Position numbers and translations under genes: made by a program. Source: Bolinopsis microptera (taxonomy: Eukaryota > Ctenophora > Tentaculata > Lobata > Bolinopsidae). From it: 64,000 nucleotides of DNA. Of the stretch, positions 457-64,000 are shown piece by piece. How positions within the stretch are numbered: position 1 is the stretch's first letter; each line of letters starts with the position of its first letter. The notes below the pieces were generated by a model. It made no database searches. It had not been told where the DNA came from and worked only from the letters and a program-made list of their open reading frames with translations. The stretch lies in assembly GCF_026151205.1 (NCBI RefSeq), contig NC_087084.1, forward strand, positions 15,702,322 to 15,766,321, written 5' to 3'.

Positions 457-3400
457 TAAAGGACCCCTCACCTCGTCCAGCCCCTGACCAGTATTTCTAT
501 TTCAGTAAACACGCCCCGGTTTACAGAAAGGACCCCCTCACCTCGTCCAGCCCCTGATCAGTATTTCTATTTCAGTAAACACGCCCCGGTTTGCAGAAAG
601 GACCCCCTCACCTCGTCCAGCCCCTGACCAGTATTTCTATTTCAGTAAACACGCCCCGGTTTGCAGAAAGGACCCCCTCACCTCGTCCAGCCCCTGATCA
701 GTATTTCTATTTCAGTAAACACGCCCCGGTTTGCAGAAAGGACCCCCTCACCTCGTCCAGCCCCTGACCAGTATTTCTATTTCAGTAAACACGCCCCGGT
801 TTGCAGAAAGGACCCCCTCACCTCGTCCAGCCCCTGACCAGTATTTCTATTTCAGTAAACACGCCCCGGTTTGCAGAAAGGACCCCCTCACCTCGTCCAG
901 CCCCTGACCAGTATTTCTATTTCAGTAAACACGCCCCGGTTTGCAGAAAGGACCCCCTCACCTCGTCCAGCCCCTGACCAGTATTTCTATTTCAGTAAAC
1001 ACGCCCCGGTTTGCAGAAAGGACCCCCTCACCTCGTCCAGCCCCTGACCAGTATTTCTATTTCAGTAAACACGCCCCGGTTTGCAGAAAGGACCCCCTCA
1101 CCTCGTCCAGCCCCTGACCAGTATTTCTATTTCAGTAAACACGCCCCGGTTTGCAGAAAGGACCCCCTCACCTCGTCCAGCCCCTGACCAGTATTTCTAT
1201 TTCAGTAAACACGCCCCGGTTTGCAGAAAGGACCCCCTCACCTCGTCCAGCCCCTGATCAGTATTTCTATTTCAGTAAACACGCCCCGGTTTGCAGAAAG
1301 GATCCCCTCACCTCGTCCAGCCCCTGACCAGTATTTCTATTTCAGTAAACACGCCCCGGTTTGCAGAAAGGACCCCCTCACCTCGTCCAGCCCCTGACCA
1401 GTATTTCTATTTCAGTAAACACGCCCCGGTTTGCAGAAAGGACCCCCTCACCTCGTCCAGCCCCTGACCAGTATTTCTATTTCAGTAAACACGCCCCGGT
1501 TTGCAGAAAGGACCCCCTCACCTCGTCCAGCCCCTGACCAGTATTTCTAATTCAGTAAACACGCCCCGGTTTGCAGAAAGGACCCCCTTACCTCGTCCAG
1601 CCCCTGACCAGTATTTCTATTTCAGTAAACACGCCCCGGTTTGCAGAAAGGACCCCCTCACCTCGTCCAGCCCCTGACCAGTATTTCTATTTCAGTAAAC
1701 ACGCCCCGGTTTACAGAAAGGACCCCCTCACCTCGTCCAGCCCCTGACCAGTATTTCTATTTCAGTAAACACGCCCCGGTTTGCAGAAAGGACCCCCTCA
1801 CCTCGTCCAGCCCCTGACCAGTATTTCTATTTCAGTAAACACGCCCCGGTTTGCAGAAAGGACCCCCTTACCTCGTCCAGCCCCTGACCAGTATTTCTAT
1901 TTCAGTAAACACGCCCCGGTTTGCAGAAAGGACCCCCTTACCTCGTCCAGCCCCTGACCAGTATTTCTATTTCAGTAAACACGCCCCGGTTTGCAGAAAG
2001 GACCCCCTCACCTCGTCCAGCCCCTGACCAGTATTTCTATTTCAGTAAACACGCCCCGGTTTGCAGAAAGGACCCCCTCACCTCGTCCAGCCCCTGACCA
2101 GTATTTCTATTTCAGTAAACACGCCCCGGTTTGCAGAAAGGACCCCTCACCTCGTCCAGCCCCTGACCAGTATTTCTATTTCAGTAAACACGCCCCGGTT
2201 TGCAGAAAGGACCCCCTCACCTCGTCCAGCCCCTGACCAGTATTTCTATTTCAGTAAACACGCCCCGGTTTGCAGAAAGACCCCCTCACCTCGTCCAGCC
2301 CCTGACCAGTATTTCTATTTCAGTAAACACGCCCCGGTTTGCAGAAAGGACCCCCTCACCTCGTCCAGCCCCTGACCAGTATTTCTATTTCAGTAAACAC
2401 GCCCCGGTTTGCAGAAAGGACCCCCTCACCTCGTCCAGCCCCTGACCAGTATTTCTATTTCAGTAAACACGCCCCGGTTTGCAGAAAGGACCCCCTCACC
2501 TCGTCCAGCCCCTGACCAGTATTTCTATTTCAGTAAACACGCCCCGGTTTGCAGAAAGGACCCCCTCACCTCGTCCTGCCCCTGACCAGTATTTCTATTT
2601 CAGTAAACACGCCCCGGTTTGCAGAAAGGACCCCCTCACCTCGTCCAGCCCCTGACCAGTATTTCTATTTCAGTAAACACGCCCCGGTTTGCAGAAAGGA
2701 CCCCCTCACCTCGTCCAGCCCCTGACCAGTATTTCTATTTCAGTAAACACGCCCCGGTTTGCAGAAAGGACCCCCTCACCTCGTCCAGCCCCTGACCAGT
2801 ATTTCTATTTCAGTAAACACGCCCCGGTTTGCAGAAAGGACCCCCTCACCTCGTCCAGGCCCTGACCAGTATTTCTATTTCAGTAAACACGCCCCGGTTT
2901 GCAGAAAGGACCCCCTCACCTCGTCCAGCCCCTGACCAGTATTTCTATTTCAGTAAACACGCCCCGGTTTGCAGAAAGGACCCCCTCACCTCGTCCAGCC
3001 CCTGACCAGTATTTCTATTTCAGTAAACACGCCCCGGTTTGCAGAAAGGACCCCCTCACCTCGTCCAGCCCCTGACCAGTATTTCTATTTCAGTAAACAC
3101 GCCCCGGTTTGCAGAAAGGACCCCCTCACCTCGTCCTGCCCCTGACCAGTATTTCTATTTCAGTAAACACGCCCCGGTTTGCAGAAAGGACCCCCTCACC
3201 TCGTCCAGGCCCTGACCAGTATTTCTATTTCAGTAAACACGCCCCGGTTTGCAGAAAGGACCCCCTCACCTCGTCCAGCCCCTGCCCAGTATTTCTATTT
3301 CAGTAAACACGCCCCGGTTTGCAGAAAGGACCCCCTCACCTCGTCCAGGCCCTGACCAGTATTTCTATTTCAGTAAACACGCCCCGGTTTGCAGAAAGGA

Positions 3401-5447: not shown

Positions 5448-5449
5448 TC

Positions 5450-5467
5450 TGGAGGCCGTAATAAGTG
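5450..5467 (+). other. Probable primer binding site of the retrotransposon
   Basis: TGG starts two bases after the LTR end, the usual spacing for a site complementary to a tRNA 3' CCA end. The following bases (aggccgtaat) would pair with the primer tRNA acceptor arm. I cannot name the tRNA without a tRNA set from this genome. Confidence 0.6.
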
Positions 5468-5473
5468 GTCGAT

Positions 5474-26074: not shown

Positions 26075-26153
<79 letters not shown>

Positions 26154-26158
26154 AATTG

Positions 26159-26189
<31 letters not shown>

Positions 26190-28654
26190 AAGTATATTTC
26201 AGGTTGAACGAGTGGAATATGAACAAGTTAGGCTGGTTTAAAATACAGCACGGCTTTGAGACGATCAGGAAGAGTACTGTCAGAGATGCTTTCTCGGCAA
26301 CGACTCAGAGTTGCGGGGAGAACCAACTAAACACAAGTAAGTTTACAAAACCGGTTACTAAGATATCCTGGCTACCTGGTTACCTGGTTACCTGGTTACC
26401 TGGTTATCTGGTTACATGATTATTTTGTACTACAGCTGATTTGTGCCATAAAAATCGAATAGTTAATGTGAGAAATGTAATAACGACGAATTCTAAACCC
26501 AGATTTTGCTGCAAACTACTACGACAGGTACCCCACTGAAGCAGAGACAGTGGAATCCTTTCTTTTTAGTAAGGTAATCACTTTCATTTTCTCTTTAACA
26601 TAATGATTATTTTCACATTCTTTTAAGTAAGAAATCATCTTCGCTTTCTCTTAGCGAGGAATCACTTTCTATTTGGCAAAATGAACACCATCACTTCTCA
26701 TCTCATGTTCTGGTAAATGAGATGTAAAATTGAGCAGGTAGACCGAGTGATCAGAAACGACAGTTCGCGACAAGTTGTAGCTTATCACCGGACCTCTCCC
26801 CGACTTGACATCACCCTTACTTTCAACGAGCAGAGTGATGTGACCTTCCTATACGATGAGAGCTATTTGGAGGACTTTCACGGAGCAGTATTCCTGGACA
26901 AATATTCCAACAGATATCTCAATATTACATTGATAGGGGGGAGTGGCAGCATTGTGGGTACTATAAAGGTTAGTACAACAGATACCTCAATATTACATTA
27001 ATAGGGGGGAGTGGCAGCATTGTGGGTACTATAAAGGTTAGTACCTTCACTCGCATCCTTTTTAAAACATTAATTTGTATAACAATTTAACTAAATATTT
27101 ATAATATACACTAAATTTATCATAATATTGTCTATTTTATTAAATCCCCGCAGAACCACCAGACAGAGGGAGATAATATTGTCTATTAATTTATTAACCT
27201 CCGCAGAATCACCAGACAGAGGGAGATAATTTCTACGTTTATATTCCCAGCGTCAGTAAACTTCCTTATCAGAAGTTTGTTAGAATCAGCTCTACTTGTA
27301 GACAAACTGAAGAACTGATGAAGACTGAAGTGTGCGTCAAACCACTGGGCCCTGAAACTAAACGTCTTTGTAAACAGGTACTGTCACCATGGTAACATCA
27401 CAAGTCACCATGGTAACATCACAAGTCACCATGGTAACACCACAAGTCACCATGGTAACACCACAAGTCACCATGGTAACACCACAAGTCACCATGGTAA
27501 CATCACCATGGTAACACCACAAGTCACCATGGTAACATCACAAGTCACCATGGTAACACCACAAGTCACCATGGTAACATCACCATGGTAACACCACAAG
27601 TCACCATGGTAACATCACAAGTCACCATGGTAACACCACAAGTCACCATGGTAACACCACAAGTCACCATGGTAACACCACAAGTCACCATGGTAACACC
27701 ACAAGTCACCATGGTAACACCACAAGTCACCATGGTAACATCACAAGTCACCATGGTAACACCACAAGTCACCATGGTAACATCACCATGGTAACACCAC
27801 AAGTCACCATGGTAACACCGCAAGTCACCATGGTAACATCACCAGTCACCATGGTAGCATCACCATGGTAACACCACAAGTCACCATGGTAACACCACAA
27901 GTCACCATGGGAACACCACAAGTCACCATGGTAACATCACCATGGTAACACCACAAGTCACCATGGTAACACCACAAGTCACCATGGGAACACCACAAGT
28001 CACCATGGTAACATCACCATGGGAAAATCACCAGTCACCATGGTAACATCACCAAGCACCGAGTATCTTTATCACTACCAAGTAACCATAGTTACCGCTA
28101 CTTAGTAACCATAGTTACCACTACACACTGCACAGGTTATCTGTTTGGAGGATGAGAACCGGAACTTTGTTTTACCAGAGGACGATATAAAGTACGAGAA
28201 AGCAGAGTATGACGATATCCTGTCTCTAACGACGTGGGGGAAGTACCTGAACCCAATACAATGGTTCAGCGGAGGGAAGCCGGGTTGGGTGGAGGGTGTG
28301 GTTATAGCTGTCTTCCTGCTTCTCCTCTCAATACTAGTGGGCATTATTGTTAAACTAGTCCGCGTCTTTAACTGCATCTTCAAGTGTCTGACGTGCTGTA
28401 GGAAGTCTAAAGACAAGTACGCTAAGGTGAGAGAGAGGGCCCTGCACCGGAGGGGGGCTGGGGACAAGGTTAAAAGTGTGGTGGCCTCTAAGAGACCCAA
28501 CTCTAGGTCCCTCGTTAGGGAGGATAGTTTAACAGACGATTTACATTACATAGTTGTTAACGACAATACGCAGGAGAATGAATATGAGACGTTACCCGGA
28601 CGTGTTAGATTTAATAGTAACCAGTTCTTCACTAGTAAGAAGTGGGCCTTTTAA
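24654..28654 (+). CDS. Fusexin-like type I membrane protein (EFF-1/AFF-1-type cell-cell fusogen candidate)
   Basis: Eight exons join in phase: 24654-25057, 25379-25650, 25813-25918, 26203-26336, 26503-26573, 26738-26968, 27207-27377 and 28136-28654 (TAA), giving 635 residues. There is an N-terminal signal peptide (VLPLLLSLLPGYHA), then a Cys-rich beta-type ectodomain with CWCDCPGG followed by further Cys and a SCCSLNIE block. One transmembrane helix (VVIAVFLLLLSILVGIIV, encoded at about 28296-28350) leads into a Cys/Lys cytosolic segment and a tail of about 105 residues. Size, topology, the CxCDC and CC motifs and the strand-rich repeats fit the EFF-1/AFF-1 branch of fusexins, the class II-like fold that merges plasma membranes. 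HAP2/GCS1 is the main alternative, and an unrelated receptor-like protein is possible. I could not align it here. Introns carry splice-junction duplications at three places. Confidence 0.58.
25255..25378 (+). repeat. ~31-bp acceptor-containing tandem copies before fusexin exon 2
   Basis: Four consecutive copies of 'taacagttgtcatggtaac' followed by an acceptor (ctatatttcag or close variants) lie directly before exon 2. Only the last acceptor, ending at 25378, continues the reading frame. Confidence 0.85.
26072..26193. repeat. (GTGAAA)n microsatellite in fusexin intron 3
   Basis: About 20 units of the hexamer precede the acceptor of exon 4 (26201-26202). The same hexamer recurs at 61485-61545 inside an adhesion GPCR intron, and as short runs of its complement (tttcac) in the carboxypeptidase introns. 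Confidence 0.92.
26909..27230 (+). repeat. Duplicated donor and acceptor junctions of fusexin intron 6
   Basis: The last ~60 bases of exon 6 with its donor (aag|gttagta) are copied once, at 26977-27042. At the other end of the intron a ~54-bp block with acceptor ccgcag and the first 24 bases of exon 7 is present twice (27128-27180 and 27181-27230). Using the outer copies gives an in-frame stop, so the inner junctions 26968 and 27207 are the functional ones. Confidence 0.85.
27384..28060. repeat. Minisatellite of caccatggtaacaccacaag units in fusexin intron 7
   Basis: About 30 units of roughly 21 bp, with occasional shortened units (catcaccatgg), fill this intron. The 'ccatggtaac' core is part of the GTTAC/GTAAC theme found across the window. 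Open frames on both strands consist only of repeats. Confidence 0.92.
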
Positions 28655-32262: not shown

Positions 32263-32270
32263 TAACTCAG

Positions 32271-42631: not shown

Positions 42632-43206
42632 TCAAACCTCAGGGATGTCCTGCAAGTTATCCTCCTTGTGTCTGACACTGTTAACATATCTCTTAACATT
42701 CTCCTTGACACTGTTAAGAGTGGAAGATAACACTCCGGGCGGGTCGGGAGGGTGAACTGAGGGGGCTAGAGTGGAGCCACTGTACGCTCTTACACCTCCT
42801 ATAGTCGGCTTAGGGGGACTAGGCGCTGAAATATACAGAGTTTCCAGGGTTACCAGGGTTACCAGGGTTACCAGGTGGAGCCACTGTACGCTCTTACACC
42901 CCCTATAGTTGGCTTAGGGGGACTAGGCGCTGAAATATACAAAGTTACCAGGGTTACCAGGGTTACCAGGGTTACCAGGGTTACCAGGGTTACCAAGGTT
43001 ACCAGGTGGAGCCACTGTACGCTCTTACACCCCCTATAGTTGGCTTAGGGGGACTAGGCGCTGAAATATACAGAGTGAAAGTGAATTCTTTGAAACTGCA
43101 CTGGGGTTAAAACGAAATTAATAGCTTTCTAGTTTCTATTATCTTCTATAGAAACTCTTTTCAAATACTCACCTCGTGTCCTTTTGAAGGGCTCCCTTCT
43201 TGACGT
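42632..43206 (-). CDS. Two terminal coding exons of unknown gene or alternative 3' end of the scaffold gene
   Basis: Exon 43173-43206 (34 bp, acceptor ttttacag, donor gtgagt) splices in phase to 42632-42825, which ends at TGA 42632-42634. The product ends TSRREPFKRTRAPSPPK…KHE-type text: Pro/Ser-rich, then a short helix-like VKENVKRYVNSV. I recognise no domain. It lies just downstream of, and on the same strand as, the EVH1-like scaffold gene, whose last exon has its own stop at 43515. I found no obvious in-phase donor joining them, so this is either an alternative 3' end or another gene. The exon start is present in three tandem copies (see 42826-43075). Confidence 0.45.
42826..43075 (-). 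repeat. Two extra copies of an acceptor plus exon start, separated by (TTACCAGGG)n
   Basis: The block 'tggagccactgtacgctctt…ctgaaatatacagag' (exon start plus acceptor on the minus strand) recurs at about 42875-42942 and 43009-43076. The copies are separated by 'gggttaccagggttacc' runs. Copies share 'ccccctatagttgg' against 'cctcctatagtcgg' in the exon proper. Confidence 0.88.
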
Positions 43207-46500: not shown

Positions 46501-49500
46501 CCTCTGGATCTAGAGACGTTGTCTCCCCTGGAGACGAGGTCCTCATCAGGAGGGATCCTCTCTGCGTGCCTCTGCTTGTACCAATCTCTAGTATAGGGCA
46601 GCCCCTCGAACCCACAGTCCCCACAATCTGCCCAATCCTTCTCATCACTCCAAAACTCGTGCGCTTTTACTGAAAATCGGAACTTTTGTTAAACAGGGTT
46701 TTACACTTTCAACACTACTATATATATTAAGTAGTTTGAGTTATATAGATCTCTGATGATAATTATTTGAAGACTTCAAGATCATACCTGTGTAGTCGCA
46801 TTCCCCCATCAAAATTAGATAAATGCAGAAAGCCCGATTTTAGGCGTCTAATGTAAAACTTTTAAAACAATTGTATTAACAATAATTTAAATAATAATTG
46901 TTAATACAATTGTATTAACTACATATTACAATACAATTATACTAACCAGGGTACTTCTGCCGAATAATAACGAACTCGGAGACTTGTGATCCTATAACTG
47001 TAATTGTCATGTCCAGCAGCTGGGTCTTGTTATTCCGACTGGGAGGGTAGGTCACAGGTTAGTTACCATGGTAACAGGTTAGAGTACAACTCTTATCTAC
47101 AAGATGCAACTTATTATGGGGCACCGAGTAAGTCACCAGGTCACTTTAAAGTTCAATACCTGATGTTTCTATTACTCTATTAGCTAGACTATAATGTTAG
47201 TTAAAGTGTAAACGTTGAAGGAGAACTACCTTACTATGGTTACAGTTAGTGATGGTTACCATGGTTACAGTTAGTGATGGTTACCATGGTTACAGTTAGT
47301 GATGGTTACTATGGTTACAGTTAGTGATGGTTACCATGGTTACATACCTTACTATGCTGTGCATCATCTTATCCAGCTTGTATTTGTCACAAAGGTAGAT
47401 AAACATTTCTTTTATAGTGATGTGAGGACTCATCTCCATGACAACCTTGTTACCAACCGGCAGGTGACACGTCACTTTTATAGCCTGGTTAAAATATATC
47501 TGTTGTATAACTATCAATAACGTGAAATATCTACAAAATTTACAAAAATCTATATACTTTTTAACAAACAATAACTTGAAATATATAGCTAGGATACAGT
47601 TAAATTATTTATTACATAGTTGTGTGGAAAGTAAATTAAAACTAGAATACTAACTGGTGGGATAGGAGGCCCCTTGTTGTGAACTAGAATACTAACTGGT
47701 GGGATAGGAGGCCCCTTGTTGTGAACTAGAATACTAACTGGTGGGATAGGAGGCCCCTTGTTGTGAACTAGAATACTAACTGGTGGGATAGGAGGCCCCT
47801 TGTTGTGAACTAGAATACTAACTGGTGGGATAGGAGGCCCCTTGTTGTGAACTAGAATACTAACTGGTGGGATAGGAGGCCCCTTGTTGTGAACTAGAAT
47901 ACTAACTGGTGGGATAGGAGGCCCCTTGTTGTGAACTAGAATACTAACTGGTGGGATAGGAGGCCCCTTGTTGTGAACTAGAATACTAACTGGTGGGATA
48001 GGAGGCCCCTTGTTGTGAACTAGAATACTAACTGGTGGGATAGGAGGCCCCTTGTTGTGAACTAGAATACTAACTGGTGGGATAGGAGGCCCCTTGTTGT
48101 GAACTAGAATACTAACTGGTGGGATAGGAGGCCCCTTGTTGTGAACTAGAATACTAACTGGTGGGATAGGAGGCCCCTTGTTGTGAACTAGAATACTAAC
48201 TGGTGGGATAGGAGGCCCCTTGTTGTGAACTAGAATACTAACTGGTGGGATAGGAGGCCCCTTGTTGTGAACTAGAATACTAACTGGTGGGATAGGAGGC
48301 CCCTTGTTGTGAACTAGAATACTAACTGGTGGGATAGGAGGCCCCTTGTTGTGAACTAGAATACTAACTGGTGGGATAGGAGGCCCCTTGTTGTGAACTA
48401 GAATACTAACTGGTGGGATAGGAGGCCCCTTGTTGTGAACTAGAATACTAACTGGTGGGATAGGAGGCCCCTTGTTGTGAACTAGAATACTAACTGGTGG
48501 GATAGGAGGCCCCTTGTTGTGAACTAGAATACTAACTGGTGGGATAGGAGGCCCCTTGTTGTGAACTAGAATACTAACTGGTGGGATAGGAGGCCCCTTG
48601 TTGTGAACTAGAATACTAACTGGTGGGATAGGAGGCCCCTTGTTGTGAACTAGAATACTAACTGGTGGGATAGGAGGCCCCTTGTTGTGAACTAGAATAC
48701 TAACTGGTGGGATAGGAGGCCCCTTGTTGTGAACTAGAATACTAACTGGTGGGATAGGAGGCCCCTTGTTGTGAACTAGAATACTAACTGGTGGGATAGG
48801 AGGCCCCTTGTTGTGAACTAGAATACTAACTGGTGGGATAGGAGGCCCCTTGTTGTGAACTAGAATACTAACTGGTGGGATAGGAGGCCCCTTGTTGTGA
48901 ACTAGAATACTAACTGGTGGGATAGGAGGCCCCTTGTTGTGAACTAGAATACTAACTGGTGGGATAGGAGGCCCCTTGTTGTGAACTAGAATACTAACTG
49001 GTGGGATAGGAGGCCCCTTGTTGTGAACTAGAATACTAACTGGTGGGATAGGAGGCCCCTTGTTGTGAACTAGAATACTAACTGGTGGGATAGGAGGCCC
49101 CTTGTTGTGAACTAGAATACTAACTGGTGGGATAGGAGGCCCCTTGTTGTGAACTAGAATACTAACTGGTGGGATAGGAGGCCCCTTGTTGTGAACTAGA
49201 ATACTAACTGGTGGGATAGGAGGCCCCTTGTTGTGAACTAGAATACTAACTGGTGGGATAGGAGGCCCCTTGTTGTGAACTAGAATACTAACTGGTGGGA
49301 TAGGAGGCCCCTTGTTGTGAACTAGAATACTAACTGGTGGGATAGGAGGCCCCTTGTTGTGAACTAGAATACTAACTGGTGGGATAGGAGGCCCCTTGTT
49401 GTGAACTAGAATACTAACTGGTGGGATAGGAGGCCCCTTGTTGTGAACTAGAATACTAACTGGTGGGATAGGAGGCCCCTTGTTGTGAACTAGAATACTA

Positions 49501-52500
49501 ACTGGTGGGATAGGAGGCCCCTTGTTGTGAACTAGAATACTAACTGGTGGGATAGGAGGCCCCTTGTTGTGAACTAGAATACTAACTGGTGGGATAGGAG
49601 GCCCCTTGTTGTGAACTAGAATACTAACTGGTGGGATAGGAGGCCCCTTGTTGTGAACTAGAATACTAACTGGTGGGATAGGAGGCCCCTTGTTGTGAAC
49701 TAGAATACTAACTGGTGGGATAGGAGGCCCCTTGTTGTGAACTAGAATACTAACTGGTGGGATAGGAGGCCCCTTGTTGTGAACTAGAATACTAACTGGT
49801 GGGATAGGAGGCCCCTTGTTGTGAACTAGAATACTAACTGGTGGGATAGGAGGTCCCTTGTTGTGAACTAGAATACTAACTGGTGGGATAGGAGGCCCCT
49901 TGTTGTGAACTAGAATACTAACTGGTGGGATAGGAGGCCCCTTGTTGTGAACTAGAATACTAACTGGTGGGATAGGAGGCCCCTTGTTGTGAACTAGAAT
50001 ACTAACTGGTGGGATAGGAGGCCCCTTGTTGTGAACTAGAATACTAACTGGTGGGATAGGAGGCCCCTTGTTGTGAACTAGAATACTAACTGGTGGGATA
50101 GGAGGCCCCTTGTTGTGAACTAGAATACTAACTGGTGGGATAGGAGGCCCCTTGTTGTGAACTAGAATACTAACTGGTGGGATAGGAGGCCCCTTGTTGT
50201 GAACTAGAATACTAACTGGTGGGATAGGAGGCCCCTTGTTGTGAACTAGAATACTAACTGGTGGGATAGGAGGCCCCTTGTTGTGAACTAGAATACTAAC
50301 TGGTGGGATAGGAGGCCCCTTGTTGTGAACTAGAATACTAACTGGTGGGATAGGAGGCCCCTTGTTGTGAACTAGAATACTAACTGGTGGGATAGGAGGC
50401 CCCTTGTTGTGAACTAGAATACTAACTGGTGGGATAGGAGGCCCCTTGTTGTGAACTAGAATACTAACTGGTGGGATAGGAGGCCCCTTGTTGTGAACTA
50501 GAATACTAACTGGTGGGATAGGAGGCCCCTTGTTGTGAACTAGAATACTAACTGGTGGGATAGGAGGCCCCTTGTTGTGAACTAGAATACTAACTGGTGG
50601 GATAGGAGGCCCCTTGTTGTGAACTAGAATACTAACTGGTGGGATAGGAGGCCCCTTGTTGTGAACTAGAATACTAACTGGTGGGATAGGAGGCCCCTTG
50701 TTGTGAACTAGAATACTAACTGGTGGGATAGGAGGCCCCTTGTTGTGAACTAGAATACTAACTGGTGGGATAGGAGGTCCCTTGTTGTGAACTAGAATAC
50801 TAACTGGTGGGATAGGAGGCCCCTTGTTGTTAACTAGAATACTAACTGGTGGGATAGGAGGCCCCTTGTTGTGAACTAGAATACTAACTGGTGGGATAGG
50901 AGGCCCCTTGTTGTGAACTAGAATACTAACTGGTGGGATAGGAGGCCCCTTGTTGTGAACTAGAATACTAACTGGTGGGATAGGAGGCCCCTTGTTGTGA
51001 ACTAGAATACTAACTGGTGGGATAGGAGGCCCCTTGTTGTGAACTAGAATACTAACTGGTGGGATAGGAGGCCCCTTGTTGTGAACTAGAATACTAACTG
51101 GTGGGATAGGAGGCCCCTTGTTGTGAACTAGAATACTAACTGGTGGGATAGGAGGCCCCTTGTTGTGAACTAGAATACTAACTGGTGGGATAGGAGGCCC
51201 CTTGTTGTGAACTAGAATACTAACTGGTGGGATAGGAGGCCCCTTGTTGTGAACTAGAATACTAACTGGTGGGATAGGAGGCCCCTTGTTGTGAACTAGA
51301 ATACTAACTGGTGGGATAGGAGGCCCCTTGTTGTGAACTAGAATACTAACTGGTGGGATAGGAGGCCCCTTGTTGTGAACTAGAATACTAACTGGTGGGA
51401 TAGGAGGCCCCTTGTTGTGAACTAGAATACTAACTGGTGGGATAGGAGGCCCCTTGTTGTGAACGACCCAGATCTCCCTGATATTAAGATTCCCCACACT
51501 ACTGCTGACTGTGAAGTGGGGAGGCAGTGGGTTGTATCTGTTAGGTCTGATCTCTATCCAGGCTGCAGGGTTGTCTACTTTGTTACTCTTCCTTATGGCA
51601 GCTAGTAGTTGCCCCATTGTCGTCCTAGTGATAGTTACCATGGTTACAAAGTTACTTTGTTACTCTTCCTTATGGCAGCGAGTAGTTGCCCCATTGTCGT
51701 CCTAGTGAGGGAACCACTTTATTTGATTTACTTAACTTACTAGTTTACTAGTTACGTAAGGACTAAACATTATCGAGTAGGAGACAAAACAACGACCTGG
51801 TATCCGTGCAAACAAAAGTGCTCTTTTAATACTAACCTCCTATCAACCTTAACATAACACTTCCTTTCTTTTCCTTTAGCGTCAGCAGGTAAATGTACCT
51901 TCAACTTTACTGTCTCCTCAGGAACACCTGTAACCATGGTTACATTTAATGATAGTTATCATGGTTACAGTTAGTGATAGTTACCATGGTTACAGTTAGT
52001 GGTGGTTACCATGGTTACAGTTACTGATGGTTATCTTGGTTACAGTTAGTGATGGTTACCATGGTTACAGTTAGTGATGGTTACCATGGTTACAGTTAGT
52101 CATGGTTACCATGGACCATGGTTACAGTTAGTGTATAGTGATGGTTACCATGGTTACATACCTTGCTTTGCGTGGTGTCCTTCAGGCAAATCAACCAGTT
52201 CTTTAGCAGGAGCCTTTCGTATCACGTCTCTTACGTCGTCAAAAAACTGCAACACAAATTTAATATTATATAATTATATATCACAATAAAAACCCTAACA
52301 GATTTAAAACAAATCCAGGCCTAACAGTAATTGTCAGGTCTGAAGTACATTGTAACGAAATAAATTATGCTGATTAACTCTCCTGGTTAGCCATGTTAGT
52401 GATGGTTACCATGGTTACCATTAGCTCACCTGGTTAGCCATGTCCTTGGTTTTGAATCTAATTCCCATAGTTTCGCTGAAGGCCTCATCTACCATACGAA

Positions 52501-53539
52501 CGAAGGTTTCTTGTCGGGACACCTTTAGAGAAGCTAATATCCTCATCTCTATCTTCAGCTTCTCATCTGGAGGGAGATATTACAACATAATACTAACTGT
52601 AACCATGGTATCATCATAGCAGTTTCTAACACTATTACAAAAGTATTATAAAAGCACACAAATATCTAACCCTGGCATGTAACCATGGTAACTAACCCTG
52701 ATAAGCCCAGACCCTGTAGACGAGTTCGTGTTTGTTCTGCACCTTGACCAGCTGTAAGAAGAGGAAGGTTAGTGTCTTAACGTGTAAGGGAATATGGTTA
52801 CTAGGTTACTAACTGGTTACTAGGTTACAAGCTGGTTACTAGATTACTAGCTGGTTACTAGATTACTAGCTGGTTACTAGGTTACTAGCTGGTTACTAGT
52901 TTACTAGCTGGTTACTAGGTTACTAGCTGGTTACTAGGTTACTAGCTGGTTACTAGGTTACTAGCTGGTTACTAGGTTACTAGCTGGTTACTAGGTTACT
53001 AGCTGGTTACTAGGTTACTAGCTGGTTACTAGGTTACTAGCTGGTTACTAGGTTACTAGCTGGTTACTAGGTTACTAGCTGGTTACTAGGTTACTAGCTG
53101 GTTACTAGGTTACTAGCTGGTTACTAGGTTACTAGCTGGTTACTAGGTTACTAGCTGGTTACTAGGTTACTAGCTGGTTACTAGGTTACTAGCTGGTTAC
53201 TAGGTTACTAGCTGGTTACTAGGTTACTAGCTGGTTACTAAGTTACTAGCTGGTTACTATGTTACTAGCTGGTTACTAGGTAACTAGCTGGTTACTAGGT
53301 TACTAGCTGGTTACTAGGTTACTAGATGGTTACTAGGTTACTAACTGGTTACTAACTGGTTACTAGGTTACTAACGTGTAGTAGAGACGTGGTTGTCAGG
53401 GCAGAATGTGGTTACTAGGTTACTAGCTGGTTACTAGGTTACTAACCTGTACGGAGAGGAAGGTCCGAGCTAGAGGCAGCCACTTCTTCTCCTCTCTCTC
53501 AAACACTACCCCGGTGTAGAGACCTAGCACGTGTGTCAT
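43515..53539 (-). CDS. EVH1-like scaffold with ubiquitin-fold segments and a long disordered Ser/Pro-rich tail
   Basis: Nine exons in phase: 53539-53447 (ATG), 52751-52697, 52566-52430, 52246-52162, 51927-51837, 51624-51435, 47484-47348, 47038-46947 and 46669-43515 (TAA), giving 1344 residues if the first donor in the 42-bp array is used. Residues ~1-125 resemble an EVH1/WH1 (PH-like) domain: W-P near the start, RVWAYQ, a repeated strand pattern, GIRFKTKDMANQF. Two segments then look like ubiquitin/RBD folds (VKLKVHLPADAKG to IREIWVV; IKVTCHLPVGNKV to MHSI). The last exon encodes 1050 residues of low complexity: Pro/Tyr-rich near its start, many RS/SP sites, a Ser/Asp run at about 44640-44750, and acidic and basic clusters. 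An actin or membrane-signalling adaptor is plausible but unproven. Confidence 0.7.
43590..43690 (-). repeat. Coding duplication flanking an in-frame (TTACCAGGG)n run
   Basis: Inside the scaffold's last exon a ~35-bp block encoding GTYEHDIRxMN is present twice. Between the copies lies 'ccagggttaccagggtta', read in frame as (NPG)n on the minus strand. The arrangement is the same as the intronic duplications at 42826-43075 but here it is translated. Confidence 0.88.
46670..47347 (-). repeat. Introns 7-8 of the scaffold gene, with 26-bp gttacagttagtgatg repeats (47228-47345)
   Basis: About 4.5 units of 'ggttacagttagtgatggttaccat' lie next to the donor of exon 7. The same 26-bp unit recurs next to exon 4's donor at 51930-52160, so two introns of this gene share one satellite family. 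Exon 8 (46947-47038) interrupts the stretch; the rest is AT-rich. Confidence 0.8.
47641..51462 (-). repeat. 42-bp array, exactly 91 units, each containing an exon end plus splice donor
   Basis: 3822 bp equals 91 x 42 with no insertion or deletion, and I see only about three substitutions. On the minus strand each unit reads HNKGPPIPPVSILV. The first unit contains the best donor for exon 6 (ccacca|gttagt, exon end 51435), which is in phase 0 with exon 7 at 47484. Each further unit repeats that donor with the preceding coding bases. The unit is 14 codons without a stop, so a donor in any unit would add whole 14-residue blocks in frame. Alternatively the whole array could be one giant exon, but its far end lacks a good donor before a stop at 47589. 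Confidence 0.93.
51577..51712 (-). repeat. 57-bp duplication of an acceptor plus exon 6 start
   Basis: 'ttgttactcttccttatggc…gtcgtcctagtga' occurs at 51577-51635 (true exon 6 start, acceptor cactag) and again at 51650-51707 in the intron. The copies differ by one base. Confidence 0.9.
52797..53365. repeat. 19-bp ggttactaggttactagct array in scaffold intron 1
   Basis: About 30 near-perfect units. The same family recurs at 63010-63130 and 63420-63905 in the adhesion GPCR, 10 kb away. The complement contains GTAACC and CTAGTAAC strings. Confidence 0.93.
53373..53415. repeat. Shard of an adhesion GPCR exon end/donor, 10 kb from its source
   Basis: 'gtagtagagacgtggttgt(c)agggcagaa' matches the 3' end and donor of the GPCR exon at 63912 and its copies at about 63690 and 63820. 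It is embedded here in the ggttactagg satellite of the scaffold's first intron. Confidence 0.8.
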
Positions 53540-56050: not shown

Positions 56051-59000
56051 CTAAAGATTAGCGTTATCGTCCTTTTTAGCGGGGAACTCTGCTGCGTTAG
56101 AGTACGTGTGGTCAGCTTCCTGTTTGCTGGTGGAAGCGTTCGCGTACACATTAGTAGCAGTACTCGCTCCACCGCCTGATTTGGGAGCAGCTGCTGTGTT
56201 CATTCCTAACTTCTCTAGCCAGAAGCTCTTTACTCCGTCGTTTAGAAGCACGTAGAATACGAATACGAATATTCCCTGAAGTTAGTTGTCATAGTAACCG
56301 TGGTAGTTTCAGTGTTTTTAAAAAGCAAGTCAAGCTTAACTTAAATTAATAAAATAATGTCTAATTTATAATATTGAAAAAGTACTACAGACAGGGGATT
56401 TACCTGAGAAGCGTTGAATACGATGAAGAGATACTGGAGTGTTATCTGGAGACCGGGAGCGGGAATGTTCATGAAAACTCCTAACACCCACCCTGTACCC
56501 AGCAGCACCATCACTCCCACTGCTGCTTTCATCTGTCTCTGTAGGAGGGAGCGTTAATATCACCATGGTAATAGTTAATATTGTTATTTAGTTACTATAG
56601 TAACTACAGGGGGGAGCGTTAATATCACCATGGCAATAGTTAATATTGTTATTTAGTTACTATAGTAACTACAGGGGGGAGGGTTAGAATCACCATGACA
56701 ATAGGAAATATTGTTATTTAGTAACTATAGTAACTACAGGGAGGGGGGTTAGAATCACCATAGCAATAGTTAATATTGTTATTTTAGTAACTATAGTAAC
56801 TAAATAACCACTTATACTTTATCAATGTGAGCATGAGAACGTCTGATTTATAAAAAATCCTTAGAATGAGTGACTAACTAACCATTAATTGTTCTTTATC
56901 ACTGAGATTGGCGTTCTTTGAGTTTCTGATGACTTTGAGGACGAGCCCGAAGAAGACGAGGTTCACTATTATTGCAAGGATGAGAGGGCCGAAGAAGAGC
57001 GCATAGAAGTTTATTGTTCCTGGCTTAAGGAAACACCTGAAATAGTAGTTCAGTTAGTTTATATGGAAATAGATTTAAAACTTTCATAGTTAGGTTGATC
57101 AAGAAGACAATTAATTTTGATGAAATTAACACTCAGATATGTAAGAAGCTTCAGTATAAGTAATGTAAGTTATGTAAGTTATGTAAGATACAAGTTATTT
57201 GAATTATTTAAGTTATTTAAGTTATTTAAGTTATTTAAGTTATTAAGTTAGTTAAGTTATTTAAGTTATTTAAGTTATTTAAGTTATTTAAGTTATTTAA
57301 GTTATTTAAGTTATGTAAGATACAAGTAAGTCTCTAAGATTACTCACATGGTCTCAGCCATGTACTGGTGATCAACTACCTCCACCCCTCCCACTGTGAT
57401 CTTCTTGGTGAAAGCGAAGTAGCCGGCTAATGGAAACACTATTGGTACTCCTGAAGAGAGAGAACTGGTTAAGAATATCACATACTACTTTACTACTACA
57501 AATATGGGATTAAGATAATTAGATATATCCACTGGACATTCTCAGCCAAGCTCATAGAGGAAAACATAAAGCGAACTATTGTATTGATTCCACAAACTTA
57601 CCGTAAGCAACGAGGTTGAATTTGAGCATGTAGTTAGAGATGTGAGATCCGAATACCTGTACCAGAGAGAGGTACATGAGGAATCCTTCAATCATAGTCC
57701 ACATAAAGACGACTAGCCACATGTAGTGTTGTAGCATCGTGTACACTGCGCAACCTATACTCTTCTGAAAACAACACCTTTATAGCAACTTTACTACACC
57801 GTTACTACACCTTACTACACCTTACACGGCGCAACCTATACTCTTCTGAAAACAACACCTTTATAGCAACTTTACTACACCTTTACTACACCTTACACTG
57901 CGCAAACTATACTCTTCTGAAAACAACACCTTTATAGCAACTTTACTACACCTTTACTACACCTTACACTGTGCAACCTATACTCTTCTGAAAACAACAC
58001 ATTTTTAACACCTTTACAACACCTTACACTGCGCAACCTATACTCTTCTGAAAACAACACCTTTTTAACACCTTTACAACACCTTACACTGCGCAACCTA
58101 TACTCTTCTGAAAACAACACCTTTTTAACACCTTTACTACACCTTACACTGCGCAACCTATACTCTTCTGAAAACAACACCTTTTTAACACCTTTACTAC
58201 ACCTACACTGCGCAACCTATACTCTTCTGAAAACAACACATTTTTAACACCTTTACTACACCTTACACTGCGCAACCTATAATTTTCTGAAAACAACACC
58301 TTTTTAACAACTTTACTACACCTTACACTGCGCAACCTATACTCTTCTGAAAACAACACCTTTTTAACACCTTTACTACACCTTACACTGCACAACCTAT
58401 ACTCTTCTGAAAACAACACCTTTTTAACACCTTTACTACACCTTTTTAAACCGGTATATATTTAGATTGAATAACTCTGCTTGAACGTTACAAAAACTAA
58501 CAACACTCGCTGTATTTTCTATTAAAGTAATGTTAATTAATAGTAAGTAACTATAAGTTATTAAGAAAAGTAATGCTAGTTAATAGTAGTTACTATACTA
58601 GTTATTATTAGTTTACAGTAAGAATAAGTAGTTTACCAGTTGTATGAGACCAGTGTTATCTGCCTTGATGAAGATGTCCTGAAGGAGGAAGAGAAGAGAG
58701 GCTAATAACAGAGCTATAGAGAAGCAGATGTTAACTTTAGCTGAGCGGGTAGTCACTATCGCTGAAGCTGGGGAGGGAGTGTTAGTTACTATGACAACTG
58801 TTACTATAGTTACTTATCTTGCTCACGCTCTCTTAATGAGACCGAAAGTTGTTATGTCTCTATATAGCCAGGGAAGAGAGTATAATATGGAAGAATATGA
58901 AGGAGCATAAAACTACCTGGTAAAATGAGACCAATAGTTGCTATGAGGCCCAGGACGGACCCTCCTAGGAGAATCTGTGACATCAGAGACTGAACCTCTA

Positions 59001-61489
59001 AATATCCTGGGTCTATCTCTTCTGCAGCCTGAAATATAGCAGTATTAGTATTAGTAGTAACCTGAGATATAGCTTCTTGTAAATCATCAGTGTAATAGTG
59101 TAAGGGTCTCTCCAAAGTGATCAGAAGAATTATATTCTGAGTGAGCCATGTAACTATAGCAATTGTTATAGTTACTATAACAACTATATCAACTATAGCG
59201 ATTGTGATAGTAACTATAATAACTATAGTAACTATAACAGTTGTCATAGTAACTATAGTAACTATAGTAACTATAATAACTATAGTAACTATAGGAGTTG
59301 TCATAGTAACTATAATAACTATAGTGACTATAGCAGTTGTCATAGTAACTATAATAACTATAGTAACTATAGTAACTATAATAACTATAGTAACTATAGC
59401 AGTTGTCATAGTAACTATAATAACTATAGTGACTATAGCAGTTGTCATAGTAACTATAATAACTATAGTAACTATAGTAACTATAGTAACTATAGTAACT
59501 ATAGTAACTATAGTAACTATAGTAACTATAGTAACTATAGTAACTATAGTAACTATAGTAACTATAGTAACTATAGTAACTATAGTAACTATAGTAACTA
59601 TAGTAACTATAGTAACTATAGTAACTATAGCAGTTGTCATAGTAACTATAGTAAGATTACTCACCATGAGTACAGCAAAGCTAGTGTTATGAGAACAGGA
59701 GCACACTACGCCGGCCTCCACAGCACTGCTATCGTATATAGTCTCACATCCATCTGTCTTCCACTCCGCCTGGGTTATTTATTGTTAATATTAGTAATAA
59801 TATAAACGTTATTTGTACAGTTACACGAATTACCAGGTATGTTAACGGGTGATAAAATATTTGTCGACGAGTCCAACTCGGCGCGCGTCCTGGTAGGTTA
59901 TAAACCTACTACCAGGTATGAGATGATTATAGTAAGATAACATTGTTGTTGTTTATTTACTGTTGCAGCCTTGTTATTGTTTACTTACCGTTTCAGCCTT
60001 GTTGTTGTTTACTTACCGTTTCAGTCTTGTTATTGTTTATTTACCGTTTCAGCCTTGTTGTTGTTTACTTACCGTTTCAGCCTTGTTATTGTTTACTTAC
60101 CGTTTCAGCCTTGTTGTCGTACCAAGCACATATGTACTTTATTTGAACTCTCCTATTCCCCATCTTCTTCATATTGTTAGCTGTGTCTCCCTGAGTAAGT
60201 GATGGTTATCTATACTGGTAACCATGGTTACAGTTAATTATACTGTGTCTCCCTGGCGAGCATATTCTGTGTTAACAGAATAATATTATCACTCAAATGA
60301 ACTTATTGATGAATAACGAGGCAGTTAACTATACTCCCAATCTGAAAGTTAGGCTTGATAACTAAACTCACAATCTGAAAGTTAGGCTTGATAACTAAAC
60401 TCACAATCTGAAAGTTGGGCTTGATGTAGAGGTTGAGCACGAAGCCGGCCTCCTGCTCTCCTACGTCTATCTCAAGAACCACAGAGTTTACAAACTTCAA
60501 GCTCTCTGCAGCTTCAGCCCCCTCTGCAGGGTCGAACTCGTCTTTAAGATCGCTCCACAGGGTGTCCCTCACTTCACTGGTAGAGTTCCCGGCTGGTAGT
60601 GGGCCGGTACTTTTAGTGGGGAAGAAAGCGTCCCCGGAGATTAGAACCACTGACATTTCTTTTATCCCCGTCGCGGAACCGATCTGAGATAAGGTTAATT
60701 TCAGGGACTAATTGGTTACTTAGTGACTAATTGGTTACTTAGGGACTAATTGGTTACTTAGTGACTAATTGGTTACTTAGTGACTAATTGGTTACTTAGG
60801 GACTAATTGGTTACTTAGTGTCTAATTGGTTACTTAGGGACTAATTGGTTACTTAGTGACTAATAATTGGTTACTTAGTGACTAATAATTGGTTACTTAG
60901 TGACGTGAACTAGTTCACTGACTTCTAAATCCACCAACTTACTCACAACTACTTAGTAGACAGTACTTACCGCAATAGAGGGCTGTCTTGGTTTACCCCC
61001 CTCCTCGCCCCCACCACCAGGTTGTCCCAACTGAGTCAGATCCTTAGCGTCCGGTAGGAAGAAGGAAATATCTTTAGCTCCGTCCTCGTTCTGCACTTTC
61101 ATTATCGCTACGTTAACTGACTTTATCAGCTTGTTAGATACTGCTGTCCGCTTAGCAATCTCTTTTATGTTAGCAACCATCCTGGGGTACAATTGTTACT
61201 CAAAATTACTGCACAAATAGTACTAAGAAAGTTGTAATTTGAAGAATTAAAAGTATTAAAAACGAAAAATCCCTTACTTTTTGGATATTTCTTGTTTTTG
61301 AGCAATGTCGTCGGTAACCAGATCTCCAGCTGCCATGGAACTTACTGCTGACACTATGTTTTCTGTTGCTGCCTCACTCACTGTCAGAATAGCACAATTT
61401 TATAATTATAACATTAATACAAGTTTTATTTGATACAAGTTTTATTTGATTATATCATATCTAAAACATTATGTCTCCACAAGGAAGTG

Positions 61490-61538
<49 letters not shown>

Positions 61539-64000
61539 AAGACAAACTAACCCTCAGTAGCAGATTGTGCTATCTTCTCCAGAACGTCCGCAGCAGCTGC
61601 AATGTCCCCGATCCCAGCGGCTCCCTCGCTGGCAAAATCGTTCAGTTGACTGGAGGCGTCGTCTGTATTTTCAGCTGTTATTTCCTGAAGTTAATACATG
61701 TTAGGTGCCGTGTTAGCTGCCGTGTTAGGTGCCGTGTTAGCTGCCGTGTTAGGTGTTATATTAGGTGCCGTGTTAGGTGTTGTATTAGGTGCCGTGTTAG
61801 GTGTTATATTAGGTGCCGTGTTAGGTTTTATATTAGGTGCCGTGTTAGGTGCCGTGTTAGGTGTTATATTAGGTGCCGTGTTAGGTGCCGTGTTAGGTGC
61901 CGTGTTAGGTGCCGTGTTAGGTGTTATATTAGGTGCCGTGTTAGGTGCCGTGTTAGGTGTTATATTAGGTGCCGTGTTAGGTGTTATATTAGGTGCCGTG
62001 TTAGGTGCCGTGTTAGGTGCCGTGTTAGGTGCCGTGTTAGGTGCCGTGTTAGCTGTCGTGTTAGGTGTTAAATTAGCTGTCGTGTTAGGTGCCGTGTTAG
62101 CTGCCGTGTTAGGTGTTATATTAGGTGCCGTGTTAGGTGTTATATTAGGTGCCGTGTTAGGTGTTATATTAGGTGCCGTGTTAGGTGCCGTGTTAGGTGT
62201 TATATTAGGTGCCGTGTTAGGTGTTATATTAGGTGCCGTGTTAGGTGCCGTGTTAGCTGCCGTGTTAGGTGTTATATTAGGTGCCGTGTTAGGTGCCGTG
62301 TTAGGTGTTATATTAGGTGCCGTGTTAGGTGCCGTGTTAGGTGCCGTGTTAGGGGCCGTGTTAGGTGCCGTGTTAGGTGCCGTGTTATATTAGGTGCCGT
62401 GTTAGGTGTTATATTAGGTGTTATATTAGGTGCCGTGTTATGTGTTGTATTAGGTGCCGTGTTAGGTGCCGTGTTAGGTGCCGTGTTAGGTGTTATATTA
62501 GGTGCCGTGTTAGGTGTTATATTAGGTGCCGTGTTAGGTGTTATATTAGGTGCCGTGTTAGGTGCCGTGTTAGCTGCCGTGTTAGGTGTTATATTAGGTG
62601 CCGTGTTAGGTGTTATATTAGGTGCCGTGTTAGGTGTTATAGTAGGTGCCGTGTTAGGTGCCGTGTCAGAGGTAAGGGGAAGTTTCATTTGGAATCAAAC
62701 AGAAAAGGAATTACTTTAATTTAAAGTAAAGAAGAAGTATATCACATTAAATACCTCAGTAAGTGCCTCAATCTTGGCAGTATTAGGTGTCTTGATGCAG
62801 TTGTAGGTGGGTTTTATAGCAGCATCCGTCTCAGATATCAGCTCACAGGAGAACTTAGCTTTAGGTTTCAGGTTCGTCGTAGGATCAGCTTCGTCGTAGA
62901 GACAATCCTTCTCCTCGCTCTTCCCTGCTCTCATAAAGCTAACGTCCTGGAACAATCCGTACACACTGTCCACATCCTGTTTCGTGCACGCTACTCCTTC
63001 ATCAGCTGGGGTGGTTACTAGGTTACTAAGTGGTTACTAGGTGGTTACTAGGTTACTAACGCTACTCCTTCGTCGGCTGGGGTGGTTACTAGGTTACTAG
63101 CTGGTTACTAGGTTACTAACGCTACTCCTTAATAAGCTGGGGTGGGAGGTTAGTTAGTTGTTAAACTTAGTGATCCACCATATCTATCAGTATTGAAACA
63201 TAGGAGGATGAGTGAGGAAGAGAAGTGAAAGGGAAAGTTCCTAAGATCAACGAGGACTTACCGACACACTTCTGCCATTGTAGCTCGTTGACCCCCGCCT
63301 CCTTCATCGTCCCCTCTTCTTCACACGGTAAACAAATTGTAGCTTTCTCATCAGAGTGATCCCCATTCGGACACAGCGTACACTCTGTCAAACCATCTGA
63401 AAGAGGGGCGTTTATTACTAGCTGGTTACTAGGTTACTAGCTGGTTATTAGGTTACTAACACAGCGTACACTCTGTCAAACCAGCTGAAAGAGGGGGCGT
63501 TTATTACAGGTGCTAGATTAAAGTAGAGCTACTAACTAATACTTAAAACTATCATAATAAGCAGGTTGCTACAGTGTAAGGTTATCATAGTGATCATGTT
63601 ACTGTCCTAACGTGTAGTGGTTGTGAGGGCAGAATATGGTTACTAGGTTACTAGCCGGTTACTAGGTTACTAGGTGGTTACTAGGTGACTAACCTGTAGT
63701 AGAGACGTGGTTGTGAGGGCAGAATAAGGTTACTAGGTTACTAGGTGGTTACTAGGTTACTAGGTGGTTACTAGGTTACTTGCTGGTTACTAGGTTACTA
63801 GCTGGTTACTAGGTGACTAACCTGTAGTAGAGACGTGGTTGTGAGGGCAGGATTTGGTTACTAGGTTACTAGGTGGTTACTAGGTTACTAGGTGGTTACT
63901 AGGTGACTAACCTGTAGTAGAGACGTGGTTGTGAGGGCAGGATTTACAGAGCCCCTCGTCACTGTACTCCCCAGCTACACAGATTCTGCACGTGCTGGGT
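56051..64000 (-). CDS. Adhesion G protein-coupled receptor (GAIN/GPS + 7TM), 5' end outside window
   Basis: Sixteen exons in phase, from the right edge: 64000-63912, 63396-63262, 63005-62755, 61684-61552, 61380-61278, 61181-60971, 60683-60405, 60190-60101, 59769-59665, 59028-58917, 58767-58637, 57764-57602, 57450-57348, 57036-56883, 56538-56404 and 56275-56051 (TAG). About 806 residues are visible. The N-terminal part has TNFR/GCC2-GCC3-like Cys modules (CRICVAGEYSDEGLCKSC; CTLCPNGDHSDE). A GAIN region follows, ending in the GPS with CAWYDN, EWKTDGC and CSCSHNTSFAVLM: cleavage is expected at HN|T, leaving a TSFAVLM tethered agonist. The 7TM domain has the TM3 Cys (IGCAVY), WTMIEGFLMYLSLV, ECL2 CFLKPG, GPLILAIIVN (TM5), GTGWVLGVF (TM6) and YLFIVFNASQGIFVFVFYVLL (TM7), given in parts. 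The cytosolic tail is short. Confidence 0.92.
56540..56800. repeat. ~62-bp intronic repeat next to the TM6 exon acceptor, four copies
   Basis: Units of 'ggagcgttaatatcaccatg…' ending 'tagttactatagtaactacagg' start at the acceptor of exon 56404-56538. They include the intron side of the acceptor but not clear exon bases. Each holds the palindrome gttactatagtaac. Confidence 0.88.
57160..57330. repeat. (TTATTTAAG)n array in an adhesion GPCR intron
   Basis: Nine-base units with a few 'tatgtaag' variants. Minus-strand units read CTTAAATAA. Intronic, between the exons at 56883-57036 and 57348-57450. Confidence 0.9.
57735..58440 (-). repeat. 11 copies of the acceptor plus start of the TM3 exon
   Basis: The sequence 'cgcaacctatactcttctga', which on the minus strand is the acceptor ttttcag and the first codons of the TM3 exon (KSIGCAV), is repeated ten further times at 60-82 bp intervals up to 58440, each with an intron spacer of 'acacctttttaacacc' type. 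One copy has a changed base at the exon start ('attttctga'). Only the leftmost copy continues into the real exon. Confidence 0.93.
58768..58916. other. Short adhesion GPCR intron between the TM1 and TM2 exons
   Basis: A 149-bp intron with a small 'ctatgacaactgttactatagttac' segment related to the tatagtaac satellite in the next intron upstream. Nothing else is seen. Confidence 0.5.
59145..59655. repeat. (TATAGTAAC)n array in the intron after the GPS exon
   Basis: About 50 units of 9 bp, with interspersed 'agcagttgtcatag' variants. Units are nearly self-complementary across junctions (gttactatagtaac). Open frames of IVTIVT on both strands are artefacts. Confidence 0.95.
59943..60115 (-). repeat. 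Five copies of an exon end plus splice donor (exon 60101-60190)
   Basis: 'acttaccgtttcagccttgt' contains the complement of exon end GCTGAAACG and donor gtaagt. It is repeated about every 30 bp from 59943 to the functional donor at 60101. The spacer is 'tattgttt' or 'tgttgttt'. Confidence 0.92.
60325..60425 (-). repeat. Three copies of an exon end plus donor (exon 60405-60683)
   Basis: 'actcacaatctgaaagttag' contains donor gtgagt and the complement of the exon end NFQI. It occurs at 60405 (functional), at about 60371 and, with a changed donor (actccc), at about 60337. The period is 33 bp, so downstream copies stay in frame. Confidence 0.9.
60700..60905. repeat. 19-bp ggttacttagtgactaatt array in an adhesion GPCR intron
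   Basis: About ten units between the exons at 60405-60683 and 60971-61181. The complement reads AGTCACTAAGTAACC. Confidence 0.9.
61705..62670. repeat. 12-bp gtgccgtgttag/gtgttatattag array, ~80 units
   Basis: A two-variant 12-bp satellite fills the intron between the exons at 61552-61684 and 62755-63005. On the transcribed (minus) strand each unit contains CTAAC or CTAAT, a branch-point-like string. Frames are open only because the period is a multiple of three. Confidence 0.93.
63005..63912 (-). repeat. Junction copies and ggttactagg satellite in the first visible adhesion GPCR introns
   Basis: Acceptor plus exon start of 62755-63005 ('gctactcctt…agctggggtgg') recurs at about 63060 and 63120. 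Acceptor plus exon start of 63262-63396 ('cacagcgtacactctgtc') recurs at about 63460. Exon end plus donor of the exon at 63912 ('ctaacctgtagtagagacgt') recurs at about 63690 and 63820. Between the copies lies the 19-bp ggttactagg satellite. Confidence 0.88.

Follow-up and report, generated by a model that had tools for sequence, protein, structure and literature searches.

Exon–Intron Border Repeats in Other Genomes

According to the available parts of the literature, tandem minisatellite-like duplications of exon–intron borders are known as "mirages", and were described in the amphioxus Adh3 gene and then in globins (PMC3087553, PMC3902484). They occur at both 5' and 3' borders, have units of 10–160 bp and an unstable length, and carry splice signals in many of their copies (PMC3087553, PMC3902484). 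Somatic instability is reported for Adh3; splicing was regular by RT-PCR, the mechanism is called unclear, and one amphioxus mirage was apparently misassembled in a draft genome (PMC3087553). The globin genes concerned are BflGb6 and BflGb9, and mirages are also reported for TnC, with a likeness drawn for PGBD5 (PMC3087553, PMC3902484). Among related cases, human segmental-duplication paralogues carry variable internal tandem repeats at exon–intron boundaries (PMC2812944), and in the potato RdRp gene a duplication across an intron–exon boundary made a new intron (PMC4974935). A review treats tandem genomic duplication as a way in which introns arise (PMC3443670), and the small tandem duplications that result from fill-in at break ends are presented as an established mutation class (PMC8355091). 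In a short search that covered passages on introns and tandem repeats in three ctenophore genome papers (PMC11797021 and PMC10232365 among them), no mention of such repeats was seen.

The repeats of the window, i.e., of the whole 64,000-nucleotide stretch of Bolinopsis microptera DNA analysed here, are a dense new instance of this known kind; the initial annotation, which knew of no named class for them, was wrong on this point. As in amphioxus, the tandem unit spans the border (at 11 of 83 tested junctions), donors as well as acceptors are affected, the units are of similar size (28 to 104 bp), and copy number is unstable, which is seen here between paralogues only (6.2 versus 23.2 copies at one junction, 10 versus 20 decoy copies at another). 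In the available sections of the reports, the mirages of amphioxus, a cephalochordate, are described for one gene at a time and with few copies (6 and 3 in the BflGb6 haplotypes), whereas in the ctenophore there are several per gene, with up to about 131 copies, at 7–13% of the tested junctions. Regular splicing was demonstrated in amphioxus by RT-PCR, while here it is the reading frame that suggests it. The name "mirage" can be extended past the cephalochordates, to which its use is confined in the literature found. The human repeats, as far as the source was available, are likewise boundary minisatellites that vary between recent paralogues, but they are tied to exon/intron modification with RNA support (PMC2812944), whereas the exon–intron structure of the adhesion GPCR pair studied here is unchanged. 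The duplication described for potato (PMC4974935) crosses the boundary and copies the splice signals, as here, yet in our single gene pair both GPCR copies keep 16 matching exons in the stretch compared.

Sequence, Gene Models and Tests

The contig that carries the window is 16.35 Mb long, and the genome totals 264.65 Mb in 232 contigs. Most of the window was read directly; inside its two largest arrays (~13.5–17.8 kb and 48.5–51.3 kb), the analysis was by TRF and script only. TRF was run on the window, and five gene models were built by hand, all of which are open from end to end: a partial ODF3/SHIPPO-like gene, an EFF-AFF fusexin, an M14 carboxypeptidase, an adhesion GPCR whose 5' end is cut off by the window, and a scaffold-like gene. 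Pfam searches matched EFF-AFF (PF14884; E-value, 5.5e-72), Peptidase_M14 (2.2e-84), 7tm_2 (3.3e-29) and GPS (6.3e-9) in the GPCR, and SHIPPO (2.4e-6) in the ODF3-like protein; the WH1 and Ras-binding (RBD) matches of the scaffold protein are weak and lie under the curated cut-offs. The fusexin gene is a complete member of the EFF-AFF family (24652–28654); EFF-AFF proteins occur in ctenophores. Rfam at the gathering threshold and ARAGORN gave no matches in the window, and positions 1–350 presumably represent the end of an open frame resembling a non-LTR element.

In the main junction test, 12 exon and 8 intron bases were used as a query, and a copy at most 3 kb away with at least 18 of 20 identical bases was scored; a stricter symmetric test used 15+15 bases and at least 25 of 30 identities. 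The reversed query served as a control. The outside sample of 240 kb consisted of 200 kb upstream of the window and four 10-kb stretches of other chromosomes, in which junctions were taken from an ab initio exon finder trained on the window's own genes (30 of its 35 window predictions scoring at least 10 were exact, these being the training genes themselves). The 204 outside junctions belong to predicted exons that score at least 10 and of which less than 30% is occupied by arrays with at least three copies; the rest of the predictions were discarded ahead of the count.

Junction-Spanning Repeats in the Window

The largest array spans an acceptor of the ODF3/SHIPPO-like gene on the forward strand (457..18242), where TRF and the gene model define a 70-bp unit with 131 matches. 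The unit consists of about 60 bp of exon and about 10 bp of intron with CAG, and its final copy is the exon at 18182. An LTR retrotransposon (4507–13305), which has gag-pol-like reading frames and is not part of the array, is inserted in it; two 70-mer units stand at 12209–12367, directly before the 3' LTR, and at a lag of 7860 this place is matched by the sequence that precedes the 5' LTR. The retrotransposon was considered as a source of the 70-mer and rejected, as six 3-kb loci at LTR ends elsewhere contain no match to the unit.

In the fusexin gene, also on the forward strand, TRF and the junction test revealed two duplications in one and the same intron: a 68-bp unit present twice at the exon 6 donor (61 bp of exon plus gttagta; 26908..27044) and a 53-bp unit present 2.1 times at the exon 7 acceptor (24 bp of exon; 27122..27230). 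The remaining cases are on the reverse strand. A terminal exon at 42771..43080, recognised by reading and TRF, has three copies of its acceptor with about 55–58 bp of exon, separated by GTAACCCTG-type repeats; two of them were scored as decoys, and this exon (~42.77–43.08 kb) is not among the 83 tested junctions. In the scaffold-like gene, the exon 6 donor carries 91 copies of a 42-bp unit, in frame and open throughout (47640..51464; TRF and junction test), and the exon 6 acceptor is part of a 58-bp direct repeat with a 19-bp spacer, i.e., a lag of 77 (51575..51709; junction test). At its exon 3 donor, reading and the family caller showed a 12-bp exon-edge repeat (52383..52441) with GT after the exon-proximal copy only.

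In the adhesion GPCR gene, TRF and the junction test both revealed arrays at the exon 12 acceptor (units of ~60 bp, 10 local decoys; 57741..58445), exon 8 donor (28 bp, 6.2 copies; 59943..60117), exon 7 donor (33 bp, three copies; 60326..60425) and exon 1 donor (~90 bp; 63617..63945). A 39-bp direct repeat with a lag of 88 was detected by the junction test at the exon 2 acceptor (63370..63496), and the exon 3 acceptor has three copies of ccccag plus 16 bp of exon (62986..63145; reading and junction test), each decoy being followed by gttagtaacc. At the exon 8 acceptor, cag and a 10-bp exon edge were read twice (60181..60252). The edge of the exon 1 donor also has a non-tandem copy (28 of 30 bases) in intron 1 of the scaffold-like gene (53366..53395, reverse strand), 10.5 kb from its source and within a GTTACTAG-type array, the same type of array being present at the source. 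The M14 carboxypeptidase gene is free of junction-spanning repeats.

With the main test, a local copy of exon edge and splice site was found at 11 of the 83 junctions of the five models, at 5 of 41 donors and 6 of 42 acceptors, compared to none of 83 with the reversed query; the stricter test retained 8 of 83. Two shorter cases, the scaffold exon 3 donor and the GPCR exon 8 acceptor, fall below the main test. Unit lengths in the window range from 28 to 104 bp, while nearest lags reach 206 at GPCR exon 3 and 119 among the duplications present only in the GPCR paralogue described below. Thus, the initial annotation was right that the repeats contain the exon edge with its splice site, which was found at every gene it had named, that both donors and acceptors are affected, and, apart from one copy at the upper end, in its range of copy numbers (2 to about 130, against 2 to about 131 here, the 70-mer being the highest).

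In the outside sample, the main test scored a copy at 14 of the 204 junctions predicted ab initio (7 of 102 donors and 7 of 102 acceptors), again compared to none of 204 with reversed queries. Nine of the 14 cases are in predicted genes with Pfam matches (three in cullin, one in AARP2CN, which is TSR1-like, three in TRPM and two in EDC4), one is in an adjacent stretch with no Pfam match, and four are in exons with neither Pfam nor other support. Since both counts stand against zero in the controls, the structures are real and present beyond the window, which bears out the earlier claim that short segments of exon–intron borders have been duplicated repeatedly.

Placement of Duplications Relative to Splice Junctions

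The repeats are probably best explained by ordinary small tandem duplication, placed nearly at random in short introns and followed by array expansion. Small tandem duplications (~20–120 bp) would be frequent and almost randomly placed in gene bodies. The initiating lesion may be a staggered break with fill-in followed by end joining, or replication slippage. As introns are short once their arrays are collapsed, a sizeable share of the duplications would cover a splice junction; such a duplication would leave the exon-proximal donor or acceptor beside an intact exon and would be tolerated if the spliceosome keeps to that copy. With two copies present, slippage or unequal exchange could make the array grow or shrink, and selection would remove most exon-internal duplications.

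TRF arrays make up 45.8% of the window, compared to 36.1% of a 264-kb region and 20.7, 25.8, 0.8 and 14.9% of the four stretches on other chromosomes. Of the 17,959 intron bases of the gene models, 11,375 lie in such arrays, compared to 389 of the 10,266 exon bases; tandem repeats are therefore the bulk of intron length, and the initial annotation had named such duplication as a main source of it. Its wider claim, that the minisatellites across the window had grown from splice junctions, does not stand, because most intronic arrays lack an exon edge: by TRF coordinates, only 5 of 36 non-redundant arrays in 41 introns span a junction (the intron of the 70-mer is not among the 41). Reading adds three arrays whose overlap is hidden by the period or end reported by TRF and two arrays missed by TRF, and the exon edge is absent from the AAGTGA, CCCTCCT, GTTACCTG, CCATGGTAAC and similar arrays.

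At the same threshold, repetition in the window was found at 42 of 2,124 exon-internal positions, 11 of 83 junctions and 1,798 of 3,311 intron-internal positions; the outside values were 39 of 4,832, 14 of 204 and 1,200 of 6,120 (flanking 200 bases). The event-weighted density at the curated acceptors is 0.048 in the last 10 exon bases, 0.036 in the first 10 intron bases and 0.160 at 40–60 bases into the intron. The rise from exon to intron is not strictly monotone, and donors reach a plateau at about 0.10–0.12. Neither in the window nor outside does the profile have a peak at the junction itself. On the acceptor side the maximum lies 40–90 bases into the intron, with lower values beyond (0.099 at 160–200 in the window; a fall from 0.060 to 0.032–0.036 outside), which speaks against strictly uniform placement.

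For comparison with chance, a null model was used in which each intron is first reduced to a single copy of every array and the duplicated segment is then placed on it at a random position (median collapsed length ~190 bp for 56 duplication families). A junction-blind caller replaced a placement test based on TRF only, as the result of the latter depended too much on the period that TRF reports. Over window and outside sample together, 18 of the 56 intronic families span a junction compared to 11.4 expected (P = 0.014). The outside families contribute 9 versus 5.10 (P = 0.036; seven stretches, six with a Pfam match, the seventh, at 88.7–90.05 kb of the joined string, being one that we take to be NUDT9-like), and the window alone contributes 9 versus 6.34 (P = 0.13). 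Two spanning cases visible by eye, the fusexin exon 7 acceptor and the scaffold exon 6 acceptor, were missed by the caller.

The most serious alternative is that a junction-biased process duplicates the borders, for instance through repair at AG/GT-rich sequence or through breaks or R-loops that accompany transcription or splicing. The excess of spanning families, with the two missed cases in addition, leaves room for a mild bias of this kind. However, the density profile lacks a junction peak, and the window by itself gives no significant excess, whether short-period arrays are collapsed, left uncollapsed (9 versus 5.93, P = 0.088) or the TRF-based test is used (5 versus 4.41, P = 0.46). The excess is modest at most and could be produced by unequal decay of copies, as spanning duplications may stay recognisable for longer if their exon copy is under selection. 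A dedicated junction bias therefore appears quite unlikely, and the junction-targeted source proposed in the initial annotation is not borne out, since the profile has no peak at the junction and random placement predicts 11.4 spanning families among 56, compared to 18 seen. The frequency with which duplications hit splice junctions is close to, or somewhat above, what is expected for short introns.

Comparison with a Paralogous Adhesion GPCR Gene

A second adhesion GPCR gene is located about 92–93 kb downstream (C13:15850224-15859417). In the stretch compared, the two genes share 16 matching exons with 96.9% exon identity, and 46 of 373 fourfold sites are changed, a silent divergence of about 12%. 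The exon 3 acceptor duplication and the exon 8 acceptor exon-edge repeat are present in both genes, as is, on reading, the exon 2 acceptor duplication, which a 1-base gap hides from the test (1 in the window copy versus 0 in the paralogue). Reading also showed one degenerate copy of the exon 1 donor duplication in the paralogue, compared to the expanded array of the window gene. Copy number is equal at the exon 7 donor (three in each) and differs at the exon 8 donor (6.2 versus 23.2) and the exon 12 acceptor (10 versus 20 decoys).

Three junction duplications are found in the paralogue exclusively: at the exon 2 donor (lag 64), the exon 13 acceptor (lag 119, with GGTAACTA filler) and the exon 14 donor (lag 42). 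Thus, 3 of 30 junctions are duplicated in one GPCR copy only, a rough rate which comes from one gene pair and counts gains and losses alike. Two clean differences are confined to introns: intron 10 has a 57-bp duplication in the paralogue, and intron 14 has a 65-bp array in the gene of the window. Introns 2, 9 and 11 also hold arrays whose make-up differs between the genes; these were left out of the count. The comparison shows turnover of the repeats between the paralogues. Three of the five clean differences span a junction, which would fit a junction-biased process, but about two are expected by chance (same formula, own arithmetic).

The paralogue also bears on assembly error, by which a long-read consensus would have duplicated or misplaced units. 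The B. microptera assembly that is probably the source of the window was made with wtdbg and pilon (PMC10232365), so that the number of copies in big arrays is uncertain, and the apparently misassembled amphioxus mirage provides a precedent (PMC3087553). Nevertheless, the repeats occur at many separate loci, their copies differ by point changes, and the two GPCR genes have arrays with the same units at the same junctions. Assembly error is therefore a very improbable source of the structures.

Growth in Place and the GTTAC Motif

In a whole-genome search, which scores the best candidates only and skips very common words, the 70-bp, 42-bp and 68-bp units matched their own locus only, while the 60-bp GPCR unit also matched the paralogue about 92 kb downstream and, weakly, C4, C9, C11 and C12. 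As three of the four units searched match their own locus only, these grew in place, and for the 70-, 42- and 68-bp units no single element dispersed over many introns, as expected of introners, was observed.

A GTTAC/GTAAC core is common to many arrays, with differing linkers and often with periods of 8–10 bp; of the 254 non-redundant arrays in the 264-kb region, which comprises the window and the 200 kb upstream, 74 have it in their unit. At least two GTTAC/GTAAC words were found in 111 of 436 spacers, compared to 179 of 872 controls taken next to them and 394 of 5,000 windows chosen at random. Slippage at GTTAC-rich sequence, suggested in the initial annotation, thus finds little support, and such filler was rejected as a motor of duplication, its presence in spacers reflecting mostly local composition.

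This core, together with the exon edge copied 10.5 kb away, might suggest that a mobile minisatellite, or an element akin to introners, was inserted at the junctions. However, the junction units derive from the neighbouring exon, three of the four searched matched a single locus only, and GTTAC is just a little more frequent in the spacers than in the adjacent sequence, so that insertion of an element is highly unlikely.

Decoy Splice Sites and Reading Frame

The decoy copies retain GT or AG in 289 of 294 cases. When variant columns are compared, with copies chosen blind to the dinucleotide, the dinucleotide varies in 4 of 36 columns versus 41 of 324 elsewhere (Fisher P = 1.0); there is no sign that the decoy dinucleotides are eroded or specially conserved, and selection for or against decoy sites, considered as a candidate, was rejected. 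If raw cells are counted and the two biggest arrays are left aside, 1 of 148 dinucleotide cells is variant compared to 62 of 1,332 cells elsewhere, an apparent conservation that was discounted because copies of one array are not independent.

Several lags or units in the window are not multiples of three (68, 53, 70, 28, 88, 71 and 77), while others are (90, 33 and 42). A single open frame of 1,356 codons takes in the 91 copies of the 42-bp scaffold array, each of which would add 14 residues; the 33-bp array of the GPCR is likewise open, and in both arrays every copy keeps the frame. The earlier assertion that only one copy continues the reading frame consequently fails for these two arrays. 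At the several lags that are not multiples of three, distal sites would shift the frame, which suggests that the exon-proximal site is the one used. That selection retains the decoys as a store of alternative splice sites, a notion favoured by the retained dinucleotides, the raw-cell contrast and the open 42-bp array, is hardly credible, as by columns the dinucleotides vary like other positions and several units are not multiples of three.

Ordinary tandem duplication with array expansion thus remains the preferred explanation. A stronger proposition, in which a process of this lineage favours borders over other short-intron sequence, junctions turn over at about the rate of silent sites (3 of 30 versus 46 of 373) and the spliceosome picks the exon-proximal site among up to about 130 nearly identical ones, is unlikely as a whole. 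The rows of near-identical splice sites, in which little but position differs, constitute a natural experiment in site choice, and at the sampled density one genome could supply many tests of splice-site competition. They also show how intron length, and potentially new exons and introns, could build up via ordinary tandem duplication.

Two minor observations were made on reading the sequence. At 63461–63484 and 63105–63130, duplicated partial exons of the GPCR gene are flanked by cag and gttagt, one of them being 24 nt (8 codons) long; judged by these flanks, the two segments could serve as mini-exons. In addition, the large coding exon of the scaffold-like gene contains a duplication with (GTAACCCTG)n at 43580–43700 in which the frame is kept, NPG and TYEHDIR being repeated in the protein.
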